A DNA stretch of 64,000 bases, taken from the NCBI GenBank assembly GCA_022772525.1, contig JALFAD010000080.1:1-64000 (forward strand), given 5' to 3'. Origin of the DNA: Clostridiales bacterium. GTDB taxonomy: Bacteria > Bacillota > Clostridia > Oscillospirales > Oscillospiraceae. Position numbers and translations under genes: made by a program. Of the stretch, positions 18,020-44,011 are shown one piece after another (position 1 is the stretch's first letter; each line of letters begins with the position of its first letter). Under the pieces are notes generated by a model. The model saw nothing but the letters and a program-made list of their open reading frames with translations, ran no database searches and was not told where the DNA came from.

Positions 18020-18067
18020 CGTTTTTACGCAACACAAATAAACAGGTGTGTCCCCCTGTGTTTATCA

Positions 18068-18258
18068 TTCCTGTAGGTCTTCTGACTTGTGCCTCAAGCG
18101 TGATCCAGTCCTGCCTTCTCAGGTTTCCCCAATGACCGGCTTTCCGCCGACGAACCGGACACATCAGCACTTACAGCGCCGTTTCCGCGTGGGGCCTTTC
18201 ACCCCATTCCCTTTTTAAGCTCGAGAACCGACCTGCGCTGCCCCCGGGCCACAAGAAT
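18068..18258 (-). ncRNA. cobalamin riboswitch, minus strand
   Basis: Read on the minus strand it has all standard parts: P1 (TTCTTGTGG with CCTACAGGAA), GGGAATGGGGTGAAAGGCCCC, the GCTGTAAGTG stretch, the B12 box AAAGCCGGTCATTGGGG and the end CACAAGTCAGAAGACCTAC. It binds adenosyl- or related cobalamin and ends transcription through the terminator that follows. Confidence 0.95.
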
Positions 18259-18321
18259 CTATATTTGTCTTTCATTATATCCATGAATTAGGAAAAAGTC
18301 AAAGGGTAAGCATATTAGTAA

Positions 18322-18349
18322 TGTGATATATCATAAATGATATATCACA
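18322..18349. promoter_or_regulatory. perfect inverted repeat with GATATATC core
   Basis: TGTGATATATCAT, two bases, then ATGATATATCACA: a perfect 13-bp inverted repeat lying in the 560-nt gap between two divergent riboswitches. It looks like a dimeric regulator site. Its core GATATATC is also the core of the operators at 47926-48022. The rest of 18260-18645 is AT-rich and shows no gene. Confidence 0.5.
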
Positions 18350-18649
18350 GAAAAGTGGAGGGAAAGTTCCGTGGCTTGGTATCATAATAAGAATAGCATT
18401 ATAAATGTCAATTCTTCGTACTGTTATGCAATAAATTCATAGCCAGGAAAAGACAACCAGTTAAACTGCCAGAAGAAAGCAGAGTTGCAGCGGACGTGCA
18501 GAAAGCTACTATAGTATCTGGGACGATGGGCCATACTTCGCAAAGGCTTTTTTACAAAATTTGTAGAAAAAGAAACAAAATAATTACAATATATAGAATA
18601 AAAACGAAAACGGCAACGCAATATATTGTGTGATATAGGAAATATGTTA

Positions 18650-18678
18650 TTGACAAAATGGAAAATCGGTTATACTAT
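18650..18678 (+). promoter_or_regulatory. sigma-70-type promoter of corrinoid locus
   Basis: TTGACA at 18650-18655, 17 nt, TACTAT at 18673-18678 (or TATACT two bases earlier). It lies about 145 nt before the + strand riboswitch and would start the long corrinoid-locus transcript. Confidence 0.7.
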
Positions 18679-18818
18679 ACTGATAAGAAATGCGAGTAGA
18701 GGTTTTGTGTGCGTAAAGGCATCGCAGTCAGGTAAAAAGCCTAATAAGGGAATGGGGTACCGAGCCCCATGCCGTGTGCGTTTAGAAATCAGTCTGTGAC
18801 TAATTTGAATCAAATAAT

Positions 18819-19006
18819 TGTTTCCGTGGCCGGACATATCGCATGACGACTGTCTGGCTGAACAAGAGAACGGGGTGTAAGTCCCCACGCTGCCGGCACT
18901 GTAAGTGTCAAGACGGCCTGTCGTTGGTGAAAGCCAGTCATTGGAGAAATCTGAGAAGGCAGACAGGCCATCGTTTGAGACACAAGTCAGGAGACCTACG
19001 GGAACA
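18819..19006 (+). ncRNA. cobalamin riboswitch, plus strand
   Basis: P1 pairs TGTTTCCGTGG with CCTACGGGAACA. Inside are AGAGAACGGGGTGTAAGTCCCC, GGCACTGTAAGTG, the B12 box GAAAGCCAGTCATTGGAG and CACAAGTCAGGAGACCTAC. A terminator follows at 19067. It controls DUF2292 and probably the downstream binding proteins. The 120 nt before it hold a second GGGAATGGGGTACC..CCCC piece that looks like a partial duplicate of the aptamer core. Confidence 0.95.
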
Positions 19007-19066
19007 TGTGTAGTCGCTTTGCTTCGAGAACTGGGCAAAGTGGTTGGTTTACGACGCAGGAAAACG

Positions 19067-19104
19067 GCTGCGGCGGTCTGGAGTTGACCGCCGCAGCTTT
19101 TATT
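19067..19104 (+). terminator. riboswitch terminator, plus strand
   Basis: GCTGCGGCGGTC and GACCGCCGCAGC form a perfect 12-pair stem with a 7-nt loop, followed by TTTTATTT. It is the expression platform of the riboswitch ending at 19006. Confidence 0.88.
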
Positions 19105-19126
19105 TATCCTATGGAGGGATGCGTAT

Positions 19127-19288
19127 ATGCCGTCAGGCTCCAATCTCATTTTAACGAAGGCTGAAAAGCAGCTTATTGAACTGGTTCGTTCTCTGGATTA
19201 CGGAGAAGTGCGGATTGTGGTGAAGGATAATAAACCGATCCGTGTGGAGGAAATCAGAAGAAGTATCCAGTTGACAAACGATAAGTAA
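19127..19288 (+). CDS. DUF2292 (YezD-like) small protein
   Basis: A 53-residue protein with the DUF2292 pattern: LVRSLDYGEVRIVVKDNKPIRVEEI, an N-terminal helix followed by a two-strand basic beta hairpin. GGAGGG lies 8 nt before the ATG. It is the first gene after the riboswitch terminator. DUF2292 proteins are small, of unknown role, and often found in micronutrient and sulfur operons. It is cut off from the next gene by a strong terminator. Confidence 0.8.
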   Translation: MPSGSNLILTKAEKQLIELVRSLDYGEVRIVVKDNKPIRVEEIRRSIQLTNDK

Positions 19289-19328
19289 ATAAAGCATTTC
19301 AACAGGAACTGACGGAAGAACCGAAGTT

Positions 19329-19369
19329 CGGAAGATGGGGAGCAGTATACCCATCTTCCGGGCTTTTTT
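19329..19369 (+). terminator. terminator after DUF2292 gene
   Basis: CGGAAGATGGG and ACCCATCTTCCG pair, followed by GGCTTTTTTC. It makes DUF2292 a single-gene riboswitch unit unless read through. Confidence 0.85.
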
Positions 19370-19599
19370 CTTTTGTCTGGACGACCGGAAGTGCAAAGAA
19401 ATAGAAATCAATCCATCGGTATTACCTGATCTGCGTAACCCCCTTGTGCGAATCTGTAATATAGACGGCCGTTTTGATCGCCCAAGAAACGGCGTTACCT
19501 CCAGGATGCCGCCGCCTGAGCCACGGCGGTATTCGGGAGAACAAAAAACCTCCGCTGTACCTAGCGGTGCAGATAAAAACCGGCTTATTTTGTGGCAAA

Positions 19600-19850
19600 T
19601 GCGCGACCGAGTGGATTCCACGGGACACGCGTTCTTGTTCGGCTGAACAAGGGAATCCGGTGCAAAACCGGGACACATTGCTCAAAACGGTGGTGCAGTC
19701 AGCATAGGGGATACGGTCTAAATGCGTAAGTCAGATGACTTACAAACGATGCAAGCAAGTGCGGTCTAAGCGTAAACGCCCCGATGGCTCCGCGTGGAAC
19801 AGGCCGGAATAAACCCTGCTTTCCGCCATAGGCGATTTCATAAATATCAA
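19600..19850 (+). ncRNA. degenerate or variant cobalamin-riboswitch-like leader
   Basis: About 500 nt without a gene lie between the terminator and the next start. The segment GGGAATCCGGTGCAAAACCGGGA (19650-19672) matches the P3/L1 core of the cobalamin aptamer, after a GTTCGGCTGAACAAG hairpin as in the riboswitch at 18819. The usual B12 box and the AGGAGACCTGC end are missing; instead there is TGCGTAAGTCAGATGACTTAC. It may be a variant aptamer or a decayed one. Several small hairpins (e.g. CCGCTGTACCTAGCGG) precede it. Confidence 0.4.
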
Positions 19851-19867
19851 AGCAAAGGAGAATGTAT

Positions 19868-22800
19868 ATGCGAACAAATGGAAAACGCCTGCTGTCGTTG
19901 ATGCTTGCTGTGCTGATGATTATCAGCATTTTGCCTGTATCTGCTTTGGCAGCGGGAGAAACCGAGATCGGCAATCAGTCGGAACTGGCTGCAATGAAAA
20001 GCGGCGGCAGCTATATTCTGACCCAGGATATTACATTGGAAAACTGGACCGCCATGGATTTACCGAAAGGCACCACTTTCAATGGTAACGGTCACACCAT
20101 TACTTTGACAGGGGCACCGCTGTTCGCCAACATGGAGGGCACGGTCATCAATCTGATCCTAAAAGGCAGTGTTGCGCAAACGGCAAACAAAAATACCGGC
20201 GCTCTGAGCCAAACCTGTTACGGTACGATCCGCAATTGCATCAGTGATGTAGCTGTGACCTACAGTGGAACCAGCAAATATATCTATGTTGGCCAGATAA
20301 CCGGATCTTATGAGTCCGGCAACAGCATCAGCAACTGCCTGATGCTGGGAAGCATTACCCCTGGAGCGTGTACTGCTTATGGTGCGGCAGGTGCGTCTTT
20401 TGCATCCTTGTCCATCAGTAACTGCGTAGCTGTTGGCTATGACAAGATCGCATATCAGGATTTTGCGGGTAATGTCAACGGAACAAATTGCACGCTGGTT
20501 GCAGGGGATTCCTACAACCCTGCGGATTATCTGGATTTCTTTAACACCTACCGCGGGGATGATCTGGCGTGGGAGCTGGCCGATGGCGCTCTGGCGCTGA
20601 AGGCCGAGGCGGCTGCCTCTGAAACAGCAACGCAGGAGCAGATGGCCGCATTGAACGAGGCGATTGCCGAGGCTGAAGCTGTGGACAAGACAAAGCTCTA
20701 TACCGCGAGCAGTTTGACCAGCTACAACAGTGCGCTGTCTGCTGCTAGGAGCAAGGCAGCGGAAACCGAGCCCACGGCATCCTCTGTGACATTGGCAACC
20801 ACCGCTCTGAACAGTGCTGTTGCCGGACTGACAGAACGGAATACTGCTGCCGTGGCGTTGCCGGACAGCAGTGTAGTTACCGTAACCCAGGATAATTTTC
20901 AGACCCTGCTGAAAGCGCCGACGGCTGGTGTTTATTACCAGTTTTCAGAAGATATTACGCTGAGCTCGAGCTATTGGATGGGATCGTATAATACCATGAA
21001 TGCCGTATTGGACGGCAATGGTTACACCCTTACACTGAACGGCGTTTCTCCCTTGTGGGGTACCATCGGTGAAAACGGCATCGTTCAGAATCTGGGCATA
21101 AAAGGTTCTGTGGCAGATGGCTATGAGCCTATTGGCAATCTGGCAAAACAATGTTCCGGTCTGATCGTAAACTGCTGGAGTGAGGCGGATACAACCAATT
21201 CTTCCAGCACTGTTACCGGTGGATTTGCAGCAAAACTGCTTTCCGGCGGCGCTGTTGTCAACTGCTGGAATACGGGCAGCATTACAACTAGCGGCAGCAG
21301 CCAGATAGGCGCGATCGTCGGCTCTGCGGAAGGAAACACCCTGATTCAGAATTGCTATTGGCAGGATGAAACCCGGAACGCTGTGGGAGCTGGCAGCGGC
21401 ATTGTAACGAACAGTAGCGTAAAGACGCAGAGCGAATTTGCTTCTGATGAATTTGTGGACCTTCTGAACAGCAACCGGGGCACATACGGAAAACAGTGGA
21501 ATATGTCCAGCACCGGCTATCCCTGGTTTGGAGAAGCGCAGGAGTACATTCCTGAGACGCCCGAAGAGCCAGTGGAAATTACCTTCACCTCCAAAAAGGG
21601 TATTGTCACCACCTTTATGAGTGACGAGGGGCTGACCATTTCTCTGAGTGATTTGGAGGCGTCAGATACTTACTATGCCGGTAAGCTGTCCATGGAAGGT
21701 GCTACCAGCTGGAGTGATGACGGGAAGAACCTGATTTACAACGATAACGAGCTTTATCTGAGCAACAAGACGGGAACCTATACGATCACCGTCTCTTATG
21801 GCGATGGTGAAAGCAGAAGCTTCAATGTCAATGTGGTGGAGCCGGCGGATGCCGTTGCCCTGCGGCTGGTTGTCGACGGTCAGGCCATCACGGACGGTCT
21901 GCTTACGGTTCAGGGCAGTGAGCGAATTGTGTTCTCTGCCGAGGCACAGTATAGCGAGGGCGGCGAATGGGAGTCCGTTCCCACCACGCTGCTGAGCTTC
22001 ACGACAACAGCGGGAACCGATGAAGCGTATGTCAACGGCTCTGTGTTCTATGCCAAAAAGCCCGGTTTGGTGACTGTTACCGCTTCCGGTCTGGGCCAGA
22101 CCGTTAACGTGGCGATTACCTCGGAATATGTAGCCGTAACAGCCATTAAACCTGCGCCCAGCGGCACCTATACTGTCCACGAGCGCAACGCCAACAGCGA
22201 TAGCTTGGGCAATTTCGTTGATCTGATGCTGGGCCATGGTGTGGGAAATGTTAACATCACCCCGGGCAATGCCAGCTATCAGGGCTGGACGCTGACATCC
22301 AGTGATACCGAGGTTGCCGAGTATGTGGATGCGTTCCTGAAAGCGGTTCTGCCGAAGAAGGCAGGTACAACCACGTTGACTGCAACTTCCGAAGATCCTA
22401 ATGTAGCGGTTAGCGGCACCAGCCAGATCACCATCCAGTATAAGAATCCTGTGACGGCTGTTACCTTCACCGACGAAAACAATGCGCTGACCATTCAGGA
22501 GGGCGAGACGCTTGATCTGCCCCTGACCTTCACCGGCACCAGCGGTATGGAAGATTACCATGTGACTGAGCCCGGCATGACCTGGAGCTTTGAAAGCAGC
22601 GACGGCGGCGAGGTCACCATCTACCGGGAGAGCCAAGGTGTGCTTGTGCGCACGGAACAAGAGTACTGTGTTGCCAATGATGCGTACAAGATTACTGGCG
22701 ACGCAGCTGGTACCGTCACCGTCACCGGTACCCCTGTGGATACCACTGGCGGTGCACAGAGTGTGACCTTCACTGTGACTGTGGAAGAGGGCGAGGAAAC

Positions 22801-24535
22801 AGCTGTTGATGTGAATGCACTGATTTCCGAGGCAATGCCTGCGGCCCAGAGCTGGCTGCAAGCAAACGGCGCCCAAAGCTATTCCTTTGGCAAAGAGTGG
22901 GAGGTATTCACGCTGACCCGCTCCGGTGTAAGCATTGACCAGGCGAAGATTGACGCTTACCTGGCATCTATTGAGGAGACTTATTCCGCAGAGACGATCT
23001 CCGACACAGCGAAGGTCCGAACCACCATCGCCCGTGTAGCGATCACCCTGGGCGCGCTTGGAAAAGATGCTTCCAACTTTGAAGGAATCAACCTCATTGA
23101 AATGCTGTACAACGATTTGGAGTCGAATCTGGATTCCAATGCCTACATCTGGGCGCTGCTGGCCATTGATTCCGGCGCTTACGAGATCCCGGAAGGCGCA
23201 GCCTGGACAAGAGACGCCCTGATCAACAAGATTCTGACATTCGCAGCGAGCAGCGGCGGCTTTGGCTTGAGCAACAATACGGAAGTCAGCGTGGATATGA
23301 CCGGTATGGCGCTGCAGTCTCTGGCCCCCTATTACGGCAGCAACACTAATGTACAGACCGCTGTGAACAACAGTCTGACTTATCTACAGAACGGTATGAC
23401 CCGTAATGCTGAATTCGGCAGTGCGGAATCCACCGCACAGGTATTGGTAGCGCTGACCGCATTGAGCAGGAACCCGCTGGCAGAGGAAAACGGGTTTGTC
23501 AAGAGTGTTGCCCGTAATATCATTACCGGCATCTGCACATACCGCAACAGCTCCACCGGAGCGTTCCAGTACAGTGGCAAGGATAATAAAATGGCAACCA
23601 TTCAATCCCTGTATGCGCTGGAATCCTATGTCCGCTACAGAGATGGGGAAAATGCCCTGTATGACCTGACCGATGCGGTAGTCAAAGTTCCTGCCGTGGA
23701 ACCCGCGGACCCCGTTCAGATTTCTGTAACCATTTCCAATAAGGGCACCCTGGTCATGGCGCAGAACACCGTTACCGTTACCGACCGGAACGAGGACGGA
23801 AAGCTGGATGTGGATGAGGCGCTGTATGCAGCCCACGAGGCGGGCTTCACCGGCGGCGCCGGCGCAGGCTATGGCTCGGCAGTAGGCAACTATGGTCTGG
23901 GCGTTACCAAGCTGTGGGGCGTTGAAACCACTAATGCTGGTTATTGGCTGAATGATGCCTCCTGCTGGAGCCTGGAGGATGAAGTAAACGCCGGCGATTA
24001 TCTGGTCGCCTGGGTTTACCAATCGGCAAACGGGGCGGATTCTTATGCCAAGTGGGACAGCACCAGTGCGTCCGCCACAACCGGCACGGCTCTGACAGTA
24101 TCTTTGCAGAAGGCAGGATACGACGGCGATTGGAACACGGTATTCTCTGCCCTGACCGGCGCAACAATCAAGGCATACAATGCGGATTTGACGGAAGCAA
24201 ATGTCTGCACGGCTGTCGACAATAACGACGGCAGCTATGCCGTGACCTTCACCACCGCCGGAGATTACTATCTGGTTGCCACGGGCAATGAGGATACCAT
24301 TCTGGTTCCCACGGTTTGCAAGGTCAGCGTGGCCCAGGGGGCGGAAGCCGTTCCGGGGGATGTGGACGGTGACGGTGTGGTCATGCTCAGTGATGCCATC
24401 GCTGCGTATACCGCTATGGCCGGTATCACCTCCCCCACTGCAGAGCAGAAGGAAAAGATGGATGTGACCAAGGATGGTCTGCTTCTCATCAATGATGTTA
24501 TGGCGATTTACAGGATGGCCGCAGGTCTGTCCTGA
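19868..24535 (+). CDS. secreted multidomain corrinoid-binding candidate with dockerin-like end
   Basis: 1,555 residues. Signal peptide 1-30 (LLSLMLAVLMIISILPVSALAAG). Two GLUG/beta-helix-like regions (about 35-230 and 330-560) flank a FIVAR-like helical segment (about 245-325). Ig-like domains fill 565-975. An alpha/alpha-toroid of the terpene-cyclase/transcobalamin type covers about 979-1262 (GFGLSNNTEVSVDMTGMALQ, FGSAESTAQVLVALTAL). A DUF4430-like beta domain is at about 1280-1395 and a dockerin-like calcium-binding duplex at 1494-1555 (GDVDGDGVVMLSDAI; DVTKDGLLLINDVM). The start at 19868 sits 7 nt after AAAGGAGA. Toroid plus DUF4430 is the layout of intrinsic factor. Corrinoid binding is inferred from this and from the riboswitches; a glycan role for the beta-helix parts is possible. 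Confidence 0.8.
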   Translation: MRTNGKRLLSLMLAVLMIISILPVSALAAGETEIGNQSELAAMKSGGSYILTQDITLENWTAMDLPKGTTFNGNGHTITLTGAPLFANMEGTVINLILKGSVAQTANKNTGALSQTCYGTIRNCISDVAVTYSGTSKYIYVGQITGSYESGNSISNCLMLGSITPGACTAYGAAGASFASLSISNCVAVGYDKIAYQDFAGNVNGTNCTLVAGDSYNPADYLDFFNTYRGDDLAWELADGALALKAEAAASETATQEQMAALNEAIAEAEAVDKTKLYTASSLTSYNSALSAARSKAAETEPTASSVTLATTALNSAVAGLTERNTAAVALPDSSVVTVTQDNFQTLLKAPTAGVYYQFSEDITLSSSYWMGSYNTMNAVLDGNGYTLTLNGVSPLWGTIGENGIVQNLGIKGSVADGYEPIGNLAKQCSGLIVNCWSEADTTNSSSTVTGGFAAKLLSGGAVVNCWNTGSITTSGSSQIGAIVGSAEGNTLIQNCYWQDETRNAVGAGSGIVTNSSVKTQSEFASDEFVDLLNSNRGTYGKQWNMSSTGYPWFGEAQEYIPETPEEPVEITFTSKKGIVTTFMSDEGLTISLSDLEASDTYYAGKLSMEGATSWSDDGKNLIYNDNELYLSNKTGTYTITVSYGDGESRSFNVNVVEPADAVALRLVVDGQAITDGLLTVQGSERIVFSAEAQYSEGGEWESVPTTLLSFTTTAGTDEAYVNGSVFYAKKPGLVTVTASGLGQTVNVAITSEYVAVTAIKPAPSGTYTVHERNANSDSLGNFVDLMLGHGVGNVNITPGNASYQGWTLTSSDTEVAEYVDAFLKAVLPKKAGTTTLTATSEDPNVAVSGTSQITIQYKNPVTAVTFTDENNALTIQEGETLDLPLTFTGTSGMEDYHVTEPGMTWSFESSDGGEVTIYRESQGVLVRTEQEYCVANDAYKITGDAAGTVTVTGTPVDTTGGAQSVTFTVTVEEGEETAVDVNALISEAMPAAQSWLQANGAQSYSFGKEWEVFTLTRSGVSIDQAKIDAYLASIEETYSAETISDTAKVRTTIARVAITLGALGKDASNFEGINLIEMLYNDLESNLDSNAYIWALLAIDSGAYEIPEGAAWTRDALINKILTFAASSGGFGLSNNTEVSVDMTGMALQSLAPYYGSNTNVQTAVNNSLTYLQNGMTRNAEFGSAESTAQVLVALTALSRNPLAEENGFVKSVARNIITGICTYRNSSTGAFQYSGKDNKMATIQSLYALESYVRYRDGENALYDLTDAVVKVPAVEPADPVQISVTISNKGTLVMAQNTVTVTDRNEDGKLDVDEALYAAHEAGFTGGAGAGYGSAVGNYGLGVTKLWGVETTNAGYWLNDASCWSLEDEVNAGDYLVAWVYQSANGADSYAKWDSTSASATTGTALTVSLQKAGYDGDWNTVFSALTGATIKAYNADLTEANVCTAVDNNDGSYAVTFTTAGDYYLVATGNEDTILVPTVCKVSVAQGAEAVPGDVDGDGVVMLSDAIAAYTAMAGITSPTAEQKEKMDVTKDGLLLINDVMAIYRMAAGLS

Positions 24536-24601: not shown

Positions 24602-25234
24602 ATGAGAAAAACCGCCAGAATATGTTCCCTTTTGATGGCGGCGGTGCTGATTGCGGCGCAAACACCTTTCGTCGCCGCCGGGGAAGAGGAGCAATCGTCC
24701 CACGAATGCACAGCGGTTCTGCTGACGGTTGTGGATGAGCAGTCCCACACAGTGAGCTGCCCGGAATGTGGTGCGGCTGTGACGGAAGCCCACAGCTTTG
24801 GCGGCTGGAATGCCCAGGACTCCCAATGCCATGTCAGCGTCTGCACCTGTGGAGCCAGTATGACGGAAGGACATGCCTGGAACGACGGTGTGTTGGATGA
24901 AGCGGCTGGCGTCAGAGTTTATACCTGCACAGCCTGCTCCGCCAGCTACACGGAAACGGCAGAGACGTCTGAGGAAGAAATGGAAGAACCGTCCGAGAAG
25001 GAAACGAAAGACCCCCTCGGGGACGAACCCACGCAAATTCCGAAGTCCGCTCTGCCCGGCGATGTGGATGGAGACGGGGAGATTACAGCCGATGATCTGA
25101 AGATGATCAGCTCCATTTCTCAGGGAACGCTTCCATCCGTTACGGAGCTTCAGATCAAAGCCGCAGATTACAATCAGGACGGCTGTGTGAATCTGGCAGA
25201 TGCGGTGCTCATCTATCTGGTTCTGATGGGATAA
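24602..25234 (+). CDS. secreted dockerin-like protein with zinc-knuckle-type repeats
   Basis: 210 residues. Signal peptide 1-23 (ICSLLMAAVLIAAQTPFVAAG). The mature N-terminal half has repeated Cys pairs and His (SCPECGAAVTEAHSFGGW; CTCGASMTEGHAW; YTCTACSASYTE), a pattern of small Cys-rich repeats seen in surface proteins of Clostridia. A Glu/Pro-rich linker follows, then a dockerin-like C-terminus: GDVDGDGEITADDL and ADYNQDGCVNLADAV, two calcium loops each followed by a helix. It lies between the large binding protein and the cohesin-like protein, in one direction, with a 66-nt gap. Binding partner unknown. Confidence 0.75.
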   Translation: MRKTARICSLLMAAVLIAAQTPFVAAGEEEQSSHECTAVLLTVVDEQSHTVSCPECGAAVTEAHSFGGWNAQDSQCHVSVCTCGASMTEGHAWNDGVLDEAAGVRVYTCTACSASYTETAETSEEEMEEPSEKETKDPLGDEPTQIPKSALPGDVDGDGEITADDLKMISSISQGTLPSVTELQIKAADYNQDGCVNLADAVLIYLVLMG

Positions 25235-25272
25235 CAGGATCGGGACACAGCTTAAGAAAGGAATGTAAAGTG

Positions 25273-27582
25273 ATGAAAAAAATCGTCAGCTTTTTGCTGG
25301 CATTGGTTATGATCCTGAATCTCGGGATCACAGCCTTTGCTGAGGGGACCTATACTATATCCCTGACTACTGAGGATGACACGGCCGATGTGTCGGAATA
25401 TGTCTATGTTACAGTCAGCGGCAGCCAGACTATAACATCGCCGGGGGCCCAGGCGTGTGTGGAATTTGATCCAGAATATCTGGAATATGACGAATCCAAA
25501 TCCACCATCGGTACTGCCTGCTCGACCTTTACCGCAAAAGCAATGAATCAGGCTGGGCATGACTATGTTTCCCTTGCCTTCCAGTCCCTTGGTTCACCCA
25601 TTGAGCTGGCGGCGGGGACCTGGTATACTCTGGCGTTCAAGACCCTGAAGGCTGGAAATACAACGGTTTCCATCTGGCAGAAATTCGTATATGACAGCAG
25701 CTACGCGGAGATCACCACGACTGCCACCGACACCGTTACCTTCACCATCACCGAGCCGTCTACCAATGTTCCTGTTACCGGTGTCACGCTGAATCAGACG
25801 GCACTGCCCCTGGGTGTTGGTTCTTCCAGTACGCTGACCGCTACTGTGGCTCCTGAGAATGCCACCAACAAGGCTGTCACCTGGACTACCGACAACGCTG
25901 AGGTTGCCACCGTGGCAGATGGTGTCGTAACCGCCGTTGCCGAAGGCACGGCAACCATTACCGCCACCACCGTTGACGGCGGCTTTACAGCTAGCTGTGC
26001 CGTTACGGTTACCGCGGCCGCTACAGCCGAGGGATATACCGTTTCTATGAAGGATTCCTCCGTCACAGCGGCTAAGGGTGGTGCAGCATCCGTAAATGTG
26101 ATGGTCAGTGGTCATTCCGATGAAAACATCACTGGATACAACGACTATGATGTGTATGTCACCTATGACAGCGCCAATCTGACCTTTAACAAGGACGCTT
26201 CCTCCGCTGCGGATACCGGTGCAACCATCGAGGAGACCGAGACCGGCACCATCCGCATCACGGGTCACGGCGATAACAAGGAATTTAGCGCGGCTGTAGC
26301 AACCCTGAACTTCACAGCCAACACTTCCGGCGCGCACAATGTGACCATCACCTCTGCCAAGGTCGATAACAGCGGCAGCGCCATCAGCAACGATGCTCCC
26401 GACGCAACAGTCGCTACGGAAACCACCGTGATCAAGGTTCCCTATTCTGTAACCCTGCCCACCGATAAGGGCTTCTCCAGCGAGCAGACCTCCGTCCTGC
26501 CCGGCGAGAGCTTCACCTTCACAGCGCCTTCCGATGCGGCCTATTACGACATTACTGTCGAAGTCGGCAAGAATACGGTTAAACCCACCATCAGCGGCAA
26601 TACCTACACCATTACCAATGTCGACGGCGATGTCGCGGTGAGCGCTGTGGGTAAGACCTACGATGTTACGGTTGCGGACACAACCGCAAGCGTTACTGCC
26701 GGCAATAAAGCACAGTATGGCGTAGACTACAGCTTTACCGTCACTGCTTCCTCCGGCAAGGTGATCGAGAGTGTGACTGCGACTGTCAACGGTACGCCGG
26801 TTACACTGACAACTTCTGGCGGACAGTATGTAATCCCTGGTAAGTCCATTACCGGCGCAGTAGTCATTCGTGTCACCGAAAAAGACAGCGGCAGTACCGA
26901 AACTACTACGAGCGTCACCATCACCGGCATTGATGTAACGGAAATTGAGGGTGGTGCTTTGACGCAGACTGTAACAGTTGGTCAGCCCTTCCCATTCCGT
27001 CTGATTAAGCAGTCCGGTTACAGCTACATTGTCAAGGTCGGCGGCATTGAGATCACACCCAATGAGGACGGCAGCTACACCATCCCCGGAACCATGATCA
27101 CCGCTGGCGGTGTCACAATTACCATCGAAAAGACATTGACACCTGTGGCTGAGGTTACCGTAACGAATTACATTCAGCTCGACGGTAAAGTTATGTGGCT
27201 GATTACGGCTACAGCTGAGGACAAAGTGCTGGCCTATGGTGAGGAAGGCACAATGTTCTGGTCGGATCAGTACGATGCCTACTGCTGGCTGGTAATCTCT
27301 GCGGAAAGCGAGGATGCGGTTAAGACTGCCGCTCAGGCCGCCATTACCGAAGCTACAGAAAGCGCTGTTGCAACCACAGTTGCTTATGACAAGGATGTCA
27401 ACCAGACCAACGCTGTGGATATCAATGATGCCCAGCTGACCTATGATATGTATCAGGCGAAGGCTTATGAGGACTTCACGAATGTTTCTATGGATAAATT
27501 CCTGGAGGCTGACGTGAACGCAGACAAGACCGTGAATACCGAAGACGCTGCCGCCATCGTTGCAGTGGTTCTTGGTAAGTAA
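25273..27582 (+). CDS. secreted scaffold-like protein: cohesin-like x2, BIG2, dockerin-like
   Basis: 769 residues. Signal peptide 1-20. Cohesin-like domain 1 (about 25-150: VYVTVSGSQTITSPGAQACVEFDPEYLEY), BIG2 Ig-like domain (about 160-252: VPVTGVTLNQTALPLGVGS), cohesin-like domain 2 (about 255-395: ASVNVMVSGHSDENITGYN), two or three short beta domains, and a C-terminal dockerin-like pair (about 705-769: VNQTNAVDINDAQLTYD; DVNADKTVNTEDAAAIV). Having both partner types it can link dockerin proteins to another cohesin, like a scaffoldin. No membrane anchor. The ATG at 25273 follows AAGGAATG. The interaction type is inferred. Confidence 0.75.
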   Translation: MKKIVSFLLALVMILNLGITAFAEGTYTISLTTEDDTADVSEYVYVTVSGSQTITSPGAQACVEFDPEYLEYDESKSTIGTACSTFTAKAMNQAGHDYVSLAFQSLGSPIELAAGTWYTLAFKTLKAGNTTVSIWQKFVYDSSYAEITTTATDTVTFTITEPSTNVPVTGVTLNQTALPLGVGSSSTLTATVAPENATNKAVTWTTDNAEVATVADGVVTAVAEGTATITATTVDGGFTASCAVTVTAAATAEGYTVSMKDSSVTAAKGGAASVNVMVSGHSDENITGYNDYDVYVTYDSANLTFNKDASSAADTGATIEETETGTIRITGHGDNKEFSAAVATLNFTANTSGAHNVTITSAKVDNSGSAISNDAPDATVATETTVIKVPYSVTLPTDKGFSSEQTSVLPGESFTFTAPSDAAYYDITVEVGKNTVKPTISGNTYTITNVDGDVAVSAVGKTYDVTVADTTASVTAGNKAQYGVDYSFTVTASSGKVIESVTATVNGTPVTLTTSGGQYVIPGKSITGAVVIRVTEKDSGSTETTTSVTITGIDVTEIEGGALTQTVTVGQPFPFRLIKQSGYSYIVKVGGIEITPNEDGSYTIPGTMITAGGVTITIEKTLTPVAEVTVTNYIQLDGKVMWLITATAEDKVLAYGEEGTMFWSDQYDAYCWLVISAESEDAVKTAAQAAITEATESAVATTVAYDKDVNQTNAVDINDAQLTYDMYQAKAYEDFTNVSMDKFLEADVNADKTVNTEDAAAIVAVVLGK

Positions 27583-27597
27583 AACGCATATCATGAG

Positions 27598-27652
27598 CCT
27601 TCAGAATTTCTGAAGGAACCTACGCACCTCCCCCGCTTTCAGCGGGGGAGGT
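27598..27652 (+). terminator. two hairpins after scaffold-like gene
   Basis: CCTTCAGAATTTCTGAAGG (27598-27617) and CCTCCCCCGC/GCGGGGGAGG (27627-27652) are stable stems without a T run. They may set mRNA processing or relative expression within the long operon. Confidence 0.6.
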
Positions 27653-27742
27653 AAGCGGCATCTTTCGGGGCTTTACAGGTGCGGCCCCAAATTCGAGGCT
27701 TTGGCTGTAAATATCCGAAAAAACCATTTAGGAGGAATCCAT

Positions 27743-28768
27743 ATGAGAAAAATTCTGTCCCTGATACTGGCGGTTGTCCTGCTGCTGTCCTGTGTGCCTG
27801 CTGCTTTGGCGACAGACAATTCACGGGAATTTTTCTTTGAGCTATCCGTTGATGGCGGCGATACTAAGCAGGTTCAGCCCGGCGATGTGATCACGGTGGT
27901 GTTCAATCTGAACCGAACGGACAGTGCGGAACCTTATGATATGTACGCCATGCAGAATGAAATCCGGTATGACAGCCGTTTTTTTCGGCTGGTGGAAGGC
28001 AGTGCATTGCTTACCGATGGTATCCATACCACTGATCTCGGATTGCGGGATGAATACCGGGAGTTTTACATGAACTTTGTGTCCATGTCCGGCGGAGAAA
28101 AATGGGATGCCAGACGTTTGGTGGGCAGTATCCAGCTGGAAGTGGTCGGGCAGACCGGTGTGTCAAAAATCACGAATCAGGACTACCTGGTTTCTACTGC
28201 CAATGGCCAGGATCATTATGAGACCGCTTGTCAGGATGTGACCATCATTATATCCACTGACTGCACCGTAACGTTTGAATCCAATGGCGGTACAGAGGTT
28301 CCCAATCAAATTGTCAACTATGGTGAAAAGGTACAAAGACCGGAAGATCCTGTGCGCAAGGGTTATCATATCGAGGGCTGGTATACGGACATCGATATGA
28401 AAAATCTCTGGGACTTTGAAAATGACACCGTCCAGGGGAATATGACTCTGTACGCCAAGTGGGCAGATGGAGATCCTGCCGGTGGCTTCCAGTGGCTGTG
28501 GCTGGTGATTGGCCTGTTGATTCTGGCGCTGCTTTTGCTCCTGCTTCTTCTGCTGAGGAGAAAAACCGTGCGCTTTGAGACCGGCTGTGAAGCAGCAATC
28601 AAGAGTCAAAAAGTGAAAAAGGGCAGTTATGCGGAGCGCCCTGAGAATCCAATTCGTCCGGGTAGAACCTTTGTCGGCTGGTACAGCAACCGGGAAATGA
28701 CTGAAAAATGGGATTTTGAGAACAACAAAGTGAAAAAGAACATGACTCTATACGCAAAGTGGATGTAA
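27743..28768 (+). CDS. membrane-anchored cohesin-like protein with InlB B-repeats
   Basis: 341 residues. Signal peptide 1-24 (ILSLILAVVLLLSCVPAALA). A cohesin-like domain (about 27-175: VQPGDVITVVFNLNRTD..YAMQNEIRYDSRFFRLV) is followed by an InlB B-repeat (about 178-245: CTVTFESNGGTEVPNQIV..GWYTDIDMKNLWDFENDTV), a membrane helix (about 252-270: WLWLVIGLLILALLLLLLLL) and then a second B-repeat-like part (273-341: GRTFVGWYSNREMTEKWDF). It could anchor a dockerin-bearing complex to the membrane. Oddly, the second B-repeat lies after the helix and would be in the cytoplasm. The ATG has AGGAGG 7 nt upstream. Confidence 0.78.
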   Translation: MRKILSLILAVVLLLSCVPAALATDNSREFFFELSVDGGDTKQVQPGDVITVVFNLNRTDSAEPYDMYAMQNEIRYDSRFFRLVEGSALLTDGIHTTDLGLRDEYREFYMNFVSMSGGEKWDARRLVGSIQLEVVGQTGVSKITNQDYLVSTANGQDHYETACQDVTIIISTDCTVTFESNGGTEVPNQIVNYGEKVQRPEDPVRKGYHIEGWYTDIDMKNLWDFENDTVQGNMTLYAKWADGDPAGGFQWLWLVIGLLILALLLLLLLLLRRKTVRFETGCEAAIKSQKVKKGSYAERPENPIRPGRTFVGWYSNREMTEKWDFENNKVKKNMTLYAKWM

Positions 28769-28773
28769 AGAAT

Positions 28774-28803
28774 CCCCCACCCGGATTTCTATCCGGGTGG
28801 GGG
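28774..28803 (+). terminator. hairpin between anchor and toroid genes
   Basis: CCCCCACCCGG and CCGGGTGGGGG make a perfect 11-pair stem with an 8-nt loop, followed by AAGCCC, so no T run. It is likely an mRNA-stability or partial-termination element. Confidence 0.6.
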
Positions 28804-28898
28804 AAGCCCAGGCTGGATTCTTACGCATGACTGTCAGGTATGGCGGCTGTGCGTAAAAACCCAGAATACCAACTCAACCTTATGGGAGGTTGTTACAG

Positions 28899-31800
28899 AT
28901 GAAAAGACGATTGACAGCAGTTTTACTCATACTGGCAATGCTTATGGGCTTGTTCCCCATGCAGGCATTGGCAGAAGACAATACACCAACCTCTGCGCAG
29001 AGCATTTTTCTTAGCCAAAGTCAGGTGCAGATGCAGGTTGGAGAGCAGATTAGGCCGACAGCGGAGGTCATCCCGGAAAGTGCGGCTGCTACAGCAGTAT
29101 GGGTGTCCCAGGATGAATCGATTGCTACTGTAGACAATGGTGTGATCACTGCCGTAGCTTCCGGAAATACGACCGTTTCTTTGGAAGTGGGTTCTTTAAA
29201 AGCCTTATGCAGTGTTACTGTTGTTTCGAAGCTGCGGAACGCCTCTCAGGACGACATGATCACGGTTTTTTTCAGCATCTTGGGTGACAGCAAGCACGGA
29301 AATAACGGTGAGACCCATACTCTGGTAGATGGAAATTTGACAGTGTGGCTGGAGCAATCAGCTTATACTGTATCTGCGCAAGCTACGGTTAAGGATGTTT
29401 TCCTGGCGGCAGTAAAGGGAAAAGAATATTCTTACGAAATCCGTGATGGAGACTATCTCGCTACCGTAAATGAGCTTTCAGAATTGAGCAACGGACCGAG
29501 ATCGGGCTGGAAATATCTGCTCAACGGCAGTTATCCCAATGAGAGCATTGCGGCTCAGGAGGTACGCCAAGGTGATGCAATTGTACTTCATTATACGGAC
29601 GATTACACTAAGGACGATAATAAAAAAATTGGTACGGATGCTATAGAGCCGGTCATTCAACAGATCAGCAGTTTAGAAGAAGTCACCATAGCGAATGAAA
29701 CAGACATCCAGAAAGCGCGGGAAGCCTATAATGCATTGTCACCTGGTCAAAAACTGGCTGTTGGCAATTACATCCTTCTGACCGAGGCGGAGGTGACCTT
29801 GACCGAAGCCCTCATCGATCAGATACCGGCGGAAATTACGCTGGATTCCGCGGACGGGATTGCCCATGCATTGTCTGCCTACAATCGACTGTCGGATGAT
29901 CAGAAGGAACTGGTGAAAAACCAAGAAAAACTTACCACCGCAAAGAAAAAGCTGGATGAACTGAAAGCTCCCGTAGAACGTGTGATAGAAAAAATAAAAG
30001 AGCTTCCGGAAGAAATAGCGTTAAAGGATGAAGAAGCAATCACTGCGGTACGGGATGCTTATAATTTGCTGCGGAAGGAGCAAAAAGAGCTTGTAACAAA
30101 TTATACGGTACTAACCAATGCGGAGGATGCTCTGGACCGTTTGAAAGCTGCCGCCGTGGATGATTTCATTTATGCCATTCCCCCTGAAACAGAGCAGGAT
30201 TTCCAGCAGGCTATTATCAATGCTAGAACAGCTTATGATAGGTTAACCGAAAAACAAAAAGCGCTTGTTGAGAATTATGATGCATTAACAGCAGCAGAAG
30301 AACGGCTGAACGAATTAAAAGCTGCCGCTGTTATCGCGCTGATTGATGCAATACCGGAAGAAATCAGGCTGGCTGACGAGCAGATCATTGCGCAGGCGAG
30401 AACGGCTTATGATTCCTTAACCGATGTGCAGAAGAACCTGGTGACCAATTCCAACAAACTGGTCACAGCAGAACGAAAACTGGAAATTCTGAATCTGCCT
30501 GCCACAGAAAAGATCTATCAGCAGACCGGTGATTATCTGGCAACGAAAGATACACCCGGTGTCGGTTCTGTCAATGGCGAATGGCGTGTCATTGGTCTTG
30601 AGAGAAGTGGACGTAAGGTAACCGATGGTTATTACAAAAATGTTGTTGAGTACGTTCTTGCCCATATCAACGAAAAAGAGTGGTTGGATGCGGCTAAATC
30701 CACAGAGAACTCCCGCGTGATCCTCGCCCTGACAGCAATGGGTTATGACGTAACCAATGTTGCCGGTCATAACCTCCTGGCCGGTTTGAATGAAATGTCT
30801 TACATTCAAACGCAAGGAATCAACGGCCCAATATGGGCGCTGATTGCGCTGAATTCTCATGATGATTATAAACCCACTGGAGATGTTACCCGGGAGAAGC
30901 TGATTCGTAGTATATTGGCTGAGCAGCTTGGAGATGGTGGCTGGGCCTTGTCCGGGAATGCATCTGAACCAGATGTGACAGCTATGGCACTCCAGGCACT
31001 TGCTCCCTATTATCGTACCCGTTCTGATGTAGAATCCGCTGTTGAAAGCGCCTTGAACTATTTGTCCGAAGCGCAGAGCCCTGACGGCGGATACGGTATC
31101 GGAGGAGATGCTACCTGCGAATCTGCTGCACAGGTTGTTGTGACTTTGACCGCTTTGGGTATCGATCCTGATACGGATCCCCATTTTGTTAAAAATGGTG
31201 TGTCGGTACTGGACGCCATGTGCACATACGCAGTGGATGGTTCTGGATTTACTCATATCTCCGGCGGCACGATCGATGATATGGCTACCGAGCAGGGATA
31301 CTATGCGCTGACTGCGTATTTCCGCATGAAAGCGGGAAAGACTTCCCTGTACGATATGTCTGACGTCACGATTGCGCCAAACCATTATAAGATCATTGAA
31401 GGTGGAGACGGTAAATGGAATACGGATGTACAGACTTATACCATTGTGTCTGATGGTGTGTTCGCGGAATTCACAGGCATTAAGGTGGATGGAACGCTGA
31501 TTGACAGCAGTAATTACATTAAGGTGGATGGAACGCTGATTGACAGCAGTAATTATACCACAAAAGCCGGCAGCACCTATGTGACATTTGAAAACAGCTA
31601 CCTGAAAACGCTGTCCCTCGGCAGGCACAGCATAACGCTTGTTTTTGAAAGCTGTGAGGTAACGACAAGCCTGATGGTCACGAAGAGCGATGCAGAACTT
31701 GTCCGGGATGTGGAAGCCCTGATAGATGCCATCGGTACTGTCACGAAGAGCAGTAAGGCGAAGATCGACAAGGCAAGGAATGCCTATAATGCGCTGACAG

Positions 31801-33371
31801 CCGAGCAGCAAAAATTGGTCACCAATTACAATAAGCTGACCACCGCAGAAAAGGCATATGCAGATCTGGCTGACAAGATTACGGTTTACTTCACACTGCT
31901 GGGTGATACTGCTCATGGCGACAACGGGCAGGAGCATACTCTGACAGGTGGCAACCTGACCACCTGGATTTCAAGGACAGCTTACACACTGGAGTCTCCT
32001 GCTACTGTGCTGGATGTGTTTACGAAGGCTGTCAGCGGGAAATACAGTTATGTCAACAAAGGTAACTACATTTCTTCTGTTAATGGCCTGGCTGAATTTA
32101 CAAATGGCAAGAATTCCGGCTGGATGTATACCCTGAATGGAAGGCACCCGAATCTTGGCGTTGCGGAACAGAAACTGTCAAACGGTGACAGCGTGGTATT
32201 CCACTACACGGATAACTATACCAAAGAACGCGGCAGTGGAACAACGGGAAATCAAACCATGGGTAAAACAACAAATGGATTCCTGACGGCGTTGGCAGAA
32301 GATCAAAGCTATGCGAATGTGTACCAGACTACCGGCGATTATCTGGAAGCACTGGGAACACCTGCAGTTGGCACAATTGGCGGAGAGTGGATGGTCATCG
32401 GTCTGGCCCGCTCTGGCCGTAAGGTTCCGGAGGGATACTATGATAGCGTGGTCAAATATGTCACGGAAAATATTGATGCCAATGAACGCCTCCATTCCAA
32501 CAAGTCTACAGATAACGCACGACTTATTCTGGCGCTGACTGCAATCGAAAAAGATGTGACCGATGTGGCAGGGCATAACCTGCTGTTGGGCCTGAATGAT
32601 ATGCATTACCTCCAGAAGCAGGGTATCAACGGCCCGATTTGGACGCTAATTGCGCTGGACTGCAGCAACTATCCTGCCCCCACTGGCGGAGATGTCAGCC
32701 GCGAGGCCCTGATCCAGGTTATTCTGGATGCACAGTTGGGAGACGGCGGCTGGGCATTGTCCGGTGAGAATGCGGATCCCGACATGACCGGTATGGCGCT
32801 GCAGGCGCTGGCTCCTTACTATGACCGCAATACGTCTGTTCAGGCTGCGGTTGACCATGCGGTTACCCTGCTGTCCGAAATACAAGACAGTGACGGCTGC
32901 TATTCCGGTGTCGACGGCGCCAGCTGCGAATCCCTTGCACAGGTTGTTGTAGCATTGACTGCGCTGGATATCGACCCCGATACGGATACTCGCTTTATCA
33001 AAAATGGCGTTTCTGTTTTGGATGCATTGCTGCGGTATGCCGTCAGTGACGGTGGTTTTAGACACGTCCTGACGGGCCAGCGGGACGGCATGGCTACGGA
33101 GCAGGGCTACTACGCGTTGACTGCCTACAATCGGTTCCTGTCTGACAAGAGCAGTCTGTATGACATGACCGATGTGATCAACAGGGGCGGTGATTCTGTT
33201 GTGATTCCGGAAGAAACTGCCGTACACACAACTACTGAGCCTGTTGAGGCGGTGCCTGCTAAGAGCGGCGGTTTCCCTTGGCTGGCGATGGTGCTGGTTT
33301 TGGTTATAGTTTCCGGCGCAGGTGTGCTGACAGTTACTGTCATCATTCCAAAGTTCAAGAAAAAGGATTGA
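28899..33371 (+). CDS. membrane-anchored double transcobalamin-like surface protein
   Basis: 1,490 residues. Signal peptide 1-26; BIG2 domain about 30-112; DUF4430 domain 1 about 120-240 (GPRSGWKYLLNGSYPNE); four helical repeats of about 70 residues, 248-530 (AYDRLTEKQKALVENYDALT type); alpha/alpha-toroid 1, 534-825; an Ig/X2-like domain 825-928; one more helical repeat; DUF4430 domain 2, 993-1112 (KNSGWMYTLNGRHPN); toroid 2, 1125-1425 (DPDMTGMALQALAPYYDRNT); C-terminal membrane helix about 1461-1482 and a lysine tail. The toroid and DUF4430 pair is the two-domain plan of intrinsic factor and transcobalamin. I infer a surface corrinoid-binding protein with two sites. Start at 28899 after GGGAGG. 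Confidence 0.82.
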   Translation: MKRRLTAVLLILAMLMGLFPMQALAEDNTPTSAQSIFLSQSQVQMQVGEQIRPTAEVIPESAAATAVWVSQDESIATVDNGVITAVASGNTTVSLEVGSLKALCSVTVVSKLRNASQDDMITVFFSILGDSKHGNNGETHTLVDGNLTVWLEQSAYTVSAQATVKDVFLAAVKGKEYSYEIRDGDYLATVNELSELSNGPRSGWKYLLNGSYPNESIAAQEVRQGDAIVLHYTDDYTKDDNKKIGTDAIEPVIQQISSLEEVTIANETDIQKAREAYNALSPGQKLAVGNYILLTEAEVTLTEALIDQIPAEITLDSADGIAHALSAYNRLSDDQKELVKNQEKLTTAKKKLDELKAPVERVIEKIKELPEEIALKDEEAITAVRDAYNLLRKEQKELVTNYTVLTNAEDALDRLKAAAVDDFIYAIPPETEQDFQQAIINARTAYDRLTEKQKALVENYDALTAAEERLNELKAAAVIALIDAIPEEIRLADEQIIAQARTAYDSLTDVQKNLVTNSNKLVTAERKLEILNLPATEKIYQQTGDYLATKDTPGVGSVNGEWRVIGLERSGRKVTDGYYKNVVEYVLAHINEKEWLDAAKSTENSRVILALTAMGYDVTNVAGHNLLAGLNEMSYIQTQGINGPIWALIALNSHDDYKPTGDVTREKLIRSILAEQLGDGGWALSGNASEPDVTAMALQALAPYYRTRSDVESAVESALNYLSEAQSPDGGYGIGGDATCESAAQVVVTLTALGIDPDTDPHFVKNGVSVLDAMCTYAVDGSGFTHISGGTIDDMATEQGYYALTAYFRMKAGKTSLYDMSDVTIAPNHYKIIEGGDGKWNTDVQTYTIVSDGVFAEFTGIKVDGTLIDSSNYIKVDGTLIDSSNYTTKAGSTYVTFENSYLKTLSLGRHSITLVFESCEVTTSLMVTKSDAELVRDVEALIDAIGTVTKSSKAKIDKARNAYNALTAEQQKLVTNYNKLTTAEKAYADLADKITVYFTLLGDTAHGDNGQEHTLTGGNLTTWISRTAYTLESPATVLDVFTKAVSGKYSYVNKGNYISSVNGLAEFTNGKNSGWMYTLNGRHPNLGVAEQKLSNGDSVVFHYTDNYTKERGSGTTGNQTMGKTTNGFLTALAEDQSYANVYQTTGDYLEALGTPAVGTIGGEWMVIGLARSGRKVPEGYYDSVVKYVTENIDANERLHSNKSTDNARLILALTAIEKDVTDVAGHNLLLGLNDMHYLQKQGINGPIWTLIALDCSNYPAPTGGDVSREALIQVILDAQLGDGGWALSGENADPDMTGMALQALAPYYDRNTSVQAAVDHAVTLLSEIQDSDGCYSGVDGASCESLAQVVVALTALDIDPDTDTRFIKNGVSVLDALLRYAVSDGGFRHVLTGQRDGMATEQGYYALTAYNRFLSDKSSLYDMTDVINRGGDSVVIPEETAVHTTTEPVEAVPAKSGGFPWLAMVLVLVIVSGAGVLTVTVIIPKFKKKD
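31479..31556 (+). repeat. 39-bp tandem duplication inside the coding sequence
   Basis: Two adjacent 39-bp copies encode IKVDGTLIDSSNY twice, differing only in the last base. The frame is kept. It lies in the Ig/X2-like domain between toroid 1 and helical repeat 5, so it is a recent in-frame duplication. Confidence 0.95.
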
Positions 33372-33385
33372 TTCAATCCGGCTGG

Positions 33386-33406
33386 GGGCAGGCATCATGC
33401 CTGCCC
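33386..33406. terminator. palindromic hairpin before peptidase gene
   Basis: GGGCAGGCATCATGCCTGCCC is a perfect palindrome just after the toroid gene. No T run follows; translation of the next gene starts 18 nt later. Confidence 0.5.
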
Positions 33407-33424
33407 CTGGAAAGGAGATAACAC

Positions 33425-34657
33425 TTGACCAGAATGAAACGAATCCTTTGCGTTCTGCTGACGGCAGCAATGCTCGGACAACCATTGATTATAACAGCCC
33501 ACGCTGCGGACGAGAATCCTGTAGGCACGGAAGAATCAATTGCCATGGGCGAAGCAGGTTGCGCTGTGGAAACGCAGATTTCCGAAATCCTGGAGGAAAT
33601 CACAGTTTCTGCGGAAACTGAGGAGACTCAGCCTGAGGAATCCGTTCCCGGGGAGACAATTGCCGAAGAAACAGTGCCGGAAGAAACAGAAGAAGCATCG
33701 AAAGAATTTGATTGGACAGAGGTCTACACCCACGAATTTCCCCTGTACTCTCAGCTGGATTACCCAAATCAGCGCTATGGCAGCGGCACCGTTGCCACCA
33801 GCGGCTGCGGCATCACATCTCTTGCCATGGTAGCCTCCTATCTCACGGGTCACGCCTATTACCCGGACGAACTGGCAAGGTATTTTGGCGGATACGGGGA
33901 AAATAATGTCCAGCGCTTTGAATACGGTGCTGAGCAGCTTAAGATGCCGATCCATAAAGCGGACACCATTCGCGATATATTCGCTGCCCTGAAAAACGGC
34001 GATGTGGCGGTCCTTCTGATGAACCATATGTCCCTGTTCACCGAGACCCAGCACTTCATTGTGCTCACTGGTATCAATGAGGAAACCGGTAAAATCATGG
34101 TTTATGATTCCTACCCGCCCAATTATGAGAAGTGGGATTTGAAGCGCGGCTTTGTGGAGGGCTTTGAAGAAAAAGACCTGATGCTTGGCTACAACGGCGG
34201 CTGGATATTCAGTGTCCGGGGAATGCCGGAGGTCCCGTTCGTCTACACCGAGGAAAAGCCCGAAGCAGATCCACGCTACAATGTGGAGCTGACATGGGAG
34301 GAACAGCAGCTTCTGGCAAAGATCATCTGGCTGGAAGCCCGCGGCGAATCCAAGGAAGGCCAGCAGGCCGTTGCCGAGGTGGTCCTCAACCGTCTTGCCT
34401 CCGGCGAATTCGGTGACAGCCTTTCTGCGGTCATCTATGGTGAAGGCCAGTTCAGGACGACCCCATTCCTGGATACAGCGGAAGCATGGCAAGCTCAGTA
34501 TGAGGCGATCGATGCCGCTCTGGAAGGCCCCAATATTCTTCCGATGGATGTGATGTATTTTGCCACCTATCCGGAAAATGATCAGGTGTGGGGACAAATC
34601 GGCGGACATATTTTCTGCTACTCCAATGGGTACAACCCGGAGGAAATCCCAAAATAA
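33425..34657 (+). CDS. secreted C39-like peptidase plus SleB-type cell-wall hydrolase
   Basis: 410 residues. Signal peptide 1-27; an acidic Glu/Thr-rich linker about 30-95; a papain-like Peptidase_C39_2 domain about 98-275 (catalytic Cys in SGCGITSLAMVAS, His in HFIVLTGI, Asp/Asn in YDSYPPN); then a hydrolase_2/SleB domain about 285-410 (IIWLEARGESKEGQQAVAEVVLNR). The TTG start is 6 nt after AAAGGAGA. It may open the peptidoglycan locally for the large surface proteins or process them. It lies inside the corrinoid locus and on the same strand; a direct role in uptake is only inferred from position. Confidence 0.82.
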   Translation: MTRMKRILCVLLTAAMLGQPLIITAHAADENPVGTEESIAMGEAGCAVETQISEILEEITVSAETEETQPEESVPGETIAEETVPEETEEASKEFDWTEVYTHEFPLYSQLDYPNQRYGSGTVATSGCGITSLAMVASYLTGHAYYPDELARYFGGYGENNVQRFEYGAEQLKMPIHKADTIRDIFAALKNGDVAVLLMNHMSLFTETQHFIVLTGINEETGKIMVYDSYPPNYEKWDLKRGFVEGFEEKDLMLGYNGGWIFSVRGMPEVPFVYTEEKPEADPRYNVELTWEEQQLLAKIIWLEARGESKEGQQAVAEVVLNRLASGEFGDSLSAVIYGEGQFRTTPFLDTAEAWQAQYEAIDAALEGPNILPMDVMYFATYPENDQVWGQIGGHIFCYSNGYNPEEIPK

Positions 34658-34711
34658 TCTACGAACAACCGAACAATCCTCGGCTTTTTCCTAAAAAACG
34701 GAGGCTTTAAT

Positions 34712-35296
34712 ATGAAGAAAAAGAAATTGGCAAATGTCATTATGGTGCTGATTATCCTGGTGATTGCTGTTGCCGGGATCGCTGCGGCTTTCAGCCTGAG
34801 AAACGGTCAGGATACAGGACTGGGCAGCCAGTACCATATTACCAAGATTCCGGACAATGCGCTCATCACCCAGGGCGAGGACAATGTCTGCACTATCACC
34901 ATTGTCTGCGACACCATTCTGGATAATCTGGACAACTTGGAGGAAGAAAAAGCGCCCTATGTTCCGAAGGACGCGGTGATCCTGCCAAAGACGCAGGTTT
35001 CCTTTACGGAGGGAGATACGGTCTTTGAAGTTCTGCAAAAAGTCTGCGCGGCGGCAGAGCTTCAGATCGAGTACAGCTGGACACCCATGTACAACAGCTA
35101 TTATATTGAGGGTATCAACCATCTGTATGAGTTCGACTGTGGAAACGAGTCCGGCTGGATGTACAAGGTCAACGAATGGTTCCCCAACTATGGCTGTTCC
35201 GCCTACACTCTGAAAAACGGGGACGACATTGTGTGGTGCTATACCTGCAACGGCCTGGGTGCGGATGTGGGAGAAGTGTGGACGGGTGACGAATGA
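34712..35296 (+). CDS. membrane-anchored DUF4430 protein of the ECF operon
   Basis: 194 residues. An uncleaved signal-anchor helix (VIMVLIILVIAVAGIAAAF) is followed by a short linker and a single DUF4430 domain about 85-185 (FEVLQKVCAAAELQIEYS, ESGWMYKVNEWFPNYGCSAY, GDDIVWCYT). No lipobox is seen. It overlaps the EcfT gene by 4 nt, so its product should work with the transporter. It probably holds the ligand at the membrane face, like a substrate-binding protein. Confidence 0.85.
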   Translation: MKKKKLANVIMVLIILVIAVAGIAAAFSLRNGQDTGLGSQYHITKIPDNALITQGEDNVCTITIVCDTILDNLDNLEEEKAPYVPKDAVILPKTQVSFTEGDTVFEVLQKVCAAAELQIEYSWTPMYNSYYIEGINHLYEFDCGNESGWMYKVNEWFPNYGCSAYTLKNGDDIVWCYTCNGLGADVGEVWTGDE

Positions 35297-41612: not shown

Positions 41613-41685
41613 ATATATTCAATTCCCACTAGCTATTCCACGAAAGGTGTGGTAATGTGTGTTGCTAATAAGAGGAGGTGAAGTG

Positions 41686-44010: not shown

Positions 44011-44011
44011 G

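Follow-up and report, generated by a model that had tools for sequence, protein, structure and literature searches.

Organization of the Locus

The window, here meaning the whole stretch of 64,000 nucleotides that was analyzed, carries three pieces of cobalamin-riboswitch type (A, B, and C) on the plus strand between 18690 and 19860 and a fourth (D) on the minus strand (Table 1). Elsewhere in the genome are three cobalamin riboswitches that are stronger than B and D, at 93-110 bits. A scan of 18070-19900 for the sigma-70 consensus returned a single plus-strand match, directly before A, and none between B and C, so that read-through from the A/B promoter is possible. Between D and this promoter lies a 28-bp palindrome, TGTGATATATCATAAATGATATATCACA (18322-18349), which is perfect (nearly so at its center) and resembles an operator built from half sites of CRP/FNR type.

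Behind leader C runs a series of genes for a FIVAR/dockerin-like surface protein, Big_2 proteins, a DUF4430 plus squalene-cyclase-like protein, a DUF4430 protein, a CbiQ-like EcfT, EcfA, and EcfS, whose probable role is corrinoid uptake. The stretch from 24602 to 39380, where dockerin-like, Big_2, DUF4430 plus squalene-cyclase-like, and cell-wall hydrolase genes lead into the ECF transporter, suggests a transcobalamin-like surface system for corrinoid capture; the combination of DUF4430 with alpha-alpha repeats is presumably comparable to transcobalamin. Within the surface-protein gene, positions 20270-20570 have about 73-84% identity to the sister species (G153), against 94-100% in nearby stretches, a patch that may reflect localized diversification of the protein. 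Farther downstream, a pemK RNA match (41237-41313; Rfam, 49 bits) lies beside large recombinase-like genes (41659-45625).

Table 1. Elements at the cobalamin riboswitch locus, in window coordinates
Element	Position	Strand	Basis
Riboswitch D, intact cobalamin riboswitch	18055-18266	-	Rfam RF00174, 54 bits
Promoter-like sequence of D	18302-18274	-	Consensus match
Sigma-70-like promoter, TTGACA-N17-TACTAT	18650-18678	+	Consensus match only
Piece A, 5' half of a cobalamin riboswitch without the 3' half	about 18690-18786	+	Homology to G012
Riboswitch B, intact class-I cobalamin aptamer	18807-19017	+	RF00174, 58.2 bits, 189/189 positions
Intrinsic terminator of B	19066-19098	+	13-pair stem and T tract
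Gene for 53-aa DUF2292 small protein	19127-19288	+	PF10055, E 4.2e-6, 26.7 bits (cutoff 22)
Second terminator-like hairpin	19330-19369	+	Stem 19330-19339/19350-19359, T6 at 19364-19369, read directly
Leader C, whole	19580-19860	+	Genus homology; Rfam 14 bits
C, 5' framework: P1 5' strand, P2 5' strand, local hairpin, P3, GGGAA junction, P5	19580-19676	+	
C, eroded center: short P6, J6/3 CAGTCA, P7 remnant, P8-P12 missing	19677-19725	+	
C, altered B12 box and P2 3' strand, self hairpin 19726-19743	19726-19747	+	
C, distal element: P1 3' strand AGGCCGG, AAACCCTGCTTT, CGCC/GGCG hairpin	19800-19837	+	Ortholog identity
Gene for 1557-aa secreted surface protein, FIVAR and dockerin-like, behind leader C	19862-24535	+	

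Riboswitches B and D

B matches the Rfam class-I model over its positions 1-189, well above the gathering cutoff of 31.5 bits. The aptamer is followed by its 13-pair terminator, the 53-aa DUF2292 gene, and a hairpin with a T tract, which bears out the original prediction of an intact cobalamin riboswitch with a terminator in front of a single 53-residue gene. The second terminator that it proposed is likewise present as a terminator-like hairpin, whose 10-nt loop is beyond the limits of the terminator scanner. The same order is seen in the congener G059, where a full riboswitch, DUF2292, a terminator-like hairpin, and a riboswitch leader precede DUF4430 and ECF genes. Corrinoid binding would be expected to favor the terminator of B.

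D, intact, divergently oriented, and missed by the original prediction, also scores above the gathering cutoff and lies upstream of a LysR-type regulator, in which the LysR HTH was found, and an AcsV-like protein. The latter matches AcsV, the corrinoid activation protein, at 906 bits (cutoff 800). B and D, on opposite strands, share about 155 nt at about 79% identity and therefore look like plausible duplicates, the only such pair at the locus. Divergent pairs of cobalamin riboswitches recur in the genus, in G165, G060, and G037; in another pair (G134:C29; L119:225-426 on the minus and 524-736 on the plus strand), one member is weak (27.7 bits).

Piece A

Piece A has no Rfam match. It was first noticed at 18735-18770 as a segment resembling an aptamer core; the core, near 18749-18770, is real, but the homology is longer, reaching from about 18660 to 18786. 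Positions 18660-18786 have 68% identity (E 4.5e-7) to a region of G012 containing a complete cobalamin riboswitch (33 bits) that stands directly before an EcfA homologue, itself 76% identical to the EcfA of the window. The homology ends after GTGTGCGTTTAGA, and no 3' half of A was found before the start of B. A hybrid aptamer combining the 5' half of A with the 3' half of B was considered and dropped, as no matching P2 strand was seen by eye. Between the window and G153, A differs at 7 of 126 positions, including a GGGAA>GGAAA change in the junction. Piece A is best read, on these comparisons, as the relic of a decaying 5' half of a cobalamin riboswitch.

Ancestry of Leader C

Leader C contains the core sequence GGGAATCCGGTGCAAAACCGG at 19651-19671. 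Against RF00174, positions 19586-19750 score 14.0 bits (E 0.89), below the cutoff, and the identification of C as a riboswitch relative rests on homology within the genus because the Rfam score alone is not significant. In a BLAST search of 136 congeners, the 5' part of C matches G058, G142, and G129 at 87-91% identity; G022, G059, and G016 match over shorter stretches, and the copy in G153 is 99% identical. One comparison, with an ortholog that is itself above the Rfam cutoff, gives an E value of 1.5e-32. In six diverged congeners, the C-homologous leaders are complete aptamers (47-62 bits in Rfam) placed before secreted-protein genes.

Structural comparison points the same way. A covariance model of C, built only from the window and G153 on a structure hand-drawn from the window, finds cobalamin riboswitches of congeners, with hits in 51 of the 136 genomes. 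In an alignment of 40 distinct sequences, 92% of cells pair, and two-sided changes occur in 29 of 41 pairs, a number reached by none of 500 shuffles and set against 8-18 in slid controls, although both counts lean towards the structure since the alignment was fitted to the hand-drawn C structure. The core helices of the four-way junction and the GGGAA junction can all pair and covary across the genus. It is very improbable that the similarity of C (GGGAAT...GGTGCAAAACC) arose by chance in a leader unrelated to riboswitches: the Rfam score below the gathering cutoff would be in keeping with this, but it is refuted by the long, high-identity homology to full Cobalamin leaders, by the covariation, and by synteny. 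The sequence comparisons thus indicate that C is a descendant of a class-I cobalamin riboswitch, and Rfam cutoffs miss descendants of this kind.

The covariance model also bears on whether A and C arose from B by local tandem duplication, forming one promoter-driven cascade with a steeper or two-step response. All three pieces do fall within 1.2 kb of the same strand, after the single plus-strand promoter match, and there are known tandems of AdoCbl riboswitches in which each has its own expression platform (PMC9481103). However, the model scores its three closest orthologs at 101-117 bits and the neighboring B at only 13.7 bits, so C is far closer to orthologs elsewhere than to B. Moreover, A, which lacks a 3' half, has its closest relative in the riboswitch preceding ecfA in G012, and only B and D look duplicated. 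These comparisons do not support either A or C as a local copy of B, and a local cascade is improbable. Of the duplication and divergence originally suggested, divergence from cobalamin riboswitches holds for both A and C, but local duplication does not, as orthologs elsewhere are closer.

Several congeners share further features around C-type riboswitches. GC-rich hairpins and a ATCTGTAATA-like motif, found at 19400-19579 in the window, also precede the C-type riboswitch in several of them (L109-L112), which suggests a longer conserved leader. The leaders of G022 and G059 were examined as possible true tandem aptamers (G022 matches at 36318-36529 and 36494-36714), but the extra part proved to be a repeat inside a single aptamer. 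This repeat, with the core GGAATACTGTATGTATTT, occurs genus-wide in up to about 80 copies per genome, with 18 matches in G000, and often lies close to contig ends. It sits at the top of P3, in the P3 loop, of the cobalamin riboswitches at G022:C43:36318-36529 and G059:C18:11317-11480 (L112, L113). Because these repeat-bearing riboswitches still match Rfam, the cobalamin aptamer seems to tolerate a P3 insertion of over 100 nt.

Changes in Leader C

Conservation of C relative to the full-length orthologs of G129, G142, and G058 is uneven. The 5' framework is the best preserved, at 88-92% identity, followed by the B12 box at 86% and the distal P1/anti-Shine-Dalgarno element at 74-79%. Identity falls to 53-55% in the P13 region and to 50-55% in the center, where 68-71 positions are present only in those relatives. 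The class-I peripheral extension, P8-P12, about 70 nt in the orthologs, is absent. J6/3 reads CAGTCA (19696-19701), whereas orthologs have CTGT-type sequences (CTGTAA, CTGTGA, CTGTAT, CTGTTA). Short stems remain possible at P6 and P7. For L5, complements downstream reach at most 5 bp, which leaves no convincing partner for an L5-L13 kissing loop, although intact orthologs are also variable in this respect.

The original prediction described a long leader with a core but no B12 box. The core stands; the box is altered rather than absent, reading AGTCAGATGACTTACAAA at 19729-19746, where the aligned congeners have AGTCAGAAGACCTACAAA. Within the box (AGTCAGATGACTT), T replaces A at 19736 and C at 19740, bases conserved in 39 of 40 and 38 of 40 aligned relatives, respectively; these are the only near-invariant core bases from which C departs. 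The C>T change at 19740 still pairs, as G-U. Together, the two changes complete a 7-bp hairpin, GTAAGTC-AGAT-GACTTAC (19726-19743), that is predicted at -7.0 kcal/mol in C versus -1.5 to -2.8 in orthologs.

The energetically preferred fold of C leaves the core helices unclosed. In ligand-free computations that ignore tertiary contacts, P2 has a pair probability of 0.003-0.011 in the window and G153, whereas four intact orthologs reach 0.27-0.98; the energy gap to the aptamer fold amounts to 14-15 kcal/mol in the former and 2-8 in the latter. Most intact orthologs likewise give the short P4 helix a low probability. In one predicted fold, the distal element pairs with the Shine-Dalgarno region, and AAACCCTGCTTT is a possible anti-Shine-Dalgarno sequence.

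This compact form is present in two species only, that of the window and its sister species, which differ at 2 of 191 positions in 19570-19760. The two differences may face each other, as A19706-T19719 versus G-C; in an alternative fold, they read as G-U to G-C plus a loop change. If compensatory, they would hint at a maintained structure. Purifying selection on C was considered from its 99% identity between the two species, but the intergenic DNA around it is itself 97-100% identical over much of its length, and two species are too few to measure selection.

Function of Leader C

Taken together, the locus probably holds several cobalamin riboswitches at different stages of decay over a region for corrinoid uptake and activation, with B12 sensing lost or weakened in C. 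In the proposed scheme, A would be a dead 5' half left directly behind the plus-strand promoter, and C an ancestral class-I riboswitch ahead of the surface-protein/ECF operon. Its sensing center would have eroded in this species and its sister through deletion of P8-P12, alteration of J6/3, and mutation of the B12 box to a form that can pair with itself, while the outer framework (P1-P5, the distal P1 strand, and the anti-Shine-Dalgarno hairpin) would persist. C is most likely unresponsive or weakly responsive to cobalamin and would now serve as a structured leader. Any B12 control of the operon would then presumably come from B by read-through.

It is possible, although doubtful, that C instead works as a compact, class-IIb-like cobalamin riboswitch of class-I descent whose ligand preference or logic has changed. 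The ligand-free state would be the one with the B12 box paired to itself, and ligand would release the box, close P2 and P4, and expose or hide the Shine-Dalgarno sequence. Retention of all but two near-invariant core bases, the pairing capacity of the short P6 and P7, the potentially compensatory differences from G153, and conservation of the distal P1 strand and anti-Shine-Dalgarno-like hairpin would fit a working switch, as would the functional class IIb relative without P8-P12 in M. tuberculosis (PMC11260477). On the other hand, J6/3 has turned from the CTGT type to a sequence that also lacks the class IIb UCU motif, and the B12-box A of 39 of 40 relatives has become T. Furthermore, the P13 region is eroded, L5 has no downstream partner longer than 5 bp, and predicted closure of P2 is 0.011 or less.

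Another proposal is that C is a recently evolved compact aptamer, its J6/3 and B12 box rewritten along with the loss of P8-P12, which senses another corrinoid or uses inverted logic in front of the corrinoid-uptake operon. This is rather unlikely. A variant aptamer for another corrinoid, as originally suggested, is possible but not favored because the changes fall on near-invariant B12-box positions and J6/3 and because they let the B12 box pair with itself. The covariance search proposed for this leader gave 14 bits (E 0.89) with Rfam; the congener leaders homologous to it score above the Rfam cutoff.

Comparison with Known Systems

B and D are full members of Cobalamin class I (RF00174). A shares the 5' half of this class but not the 3' half. 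C retains P2-P5, the GGGAA junction, P6, P7, and a B12 box recognizable by descent; unlike class I, it lacks P8-P12, carries CAGTCA in J6/3 and AGTCAGATGACTT in the B12 box, and scores 14 bits against the cutoff of 31.5.

Class IIb cobalamin riboswitches, including M. tuberculosis ppe2, lack P8-P12 yet bind ligand (PMC11260477). By the definition used there (no P8-P12, GGAA in J3/4, UCU in J6/3), C resembles class IIb as a compact aptamer without P8-P12 and with GGAA at the J3/4 position, but not in J6/3, where the UCU motif is absent from both C and ppe2 (PMC11260477). C differs from class IIb in its derivation from the class-I leaders of its own genus and in an off-consensus B12 box.

Tandem AdoCbl riboswitches (reviewed in PMC9481103) resemble this locus in having several cobalamin-type aptamers, one with its own terminator. 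Here, in contrast, only one plus-strand aptamer is intact; of the other two, one is a half and one is eroded, and their ancestry is separate. Differences in corrinoid selectivity are distributed over the aptamer (PMC9600662).

A pattern scan of 84,980 species, one genome per species, found no further compact C-type form beyond the sister genome, within the reach of the pattern. Five stretches were returned: one was the G153 leader again, one (L089) is a full Cobalamin match at 104.7 bits, and three have no Cobalamin match.

Cobalamin riboswitches, their tandems, and their selectivity differences are known; the lineage-specific deletion of P8-P12 combined with a B12 box that can pair with itself, for which intact orthologs can be compared, is a new form among them. 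Leader C presents a riboswitch in transition: six congeners have it whole, whereas in two species it is shortened and its B12 box can fold on itself, each time with the same kind of gene behind it. Comparing the complete and shortened leaders could show directly whether class-I cobalamin aptamers turn into compact sensors or simply die.
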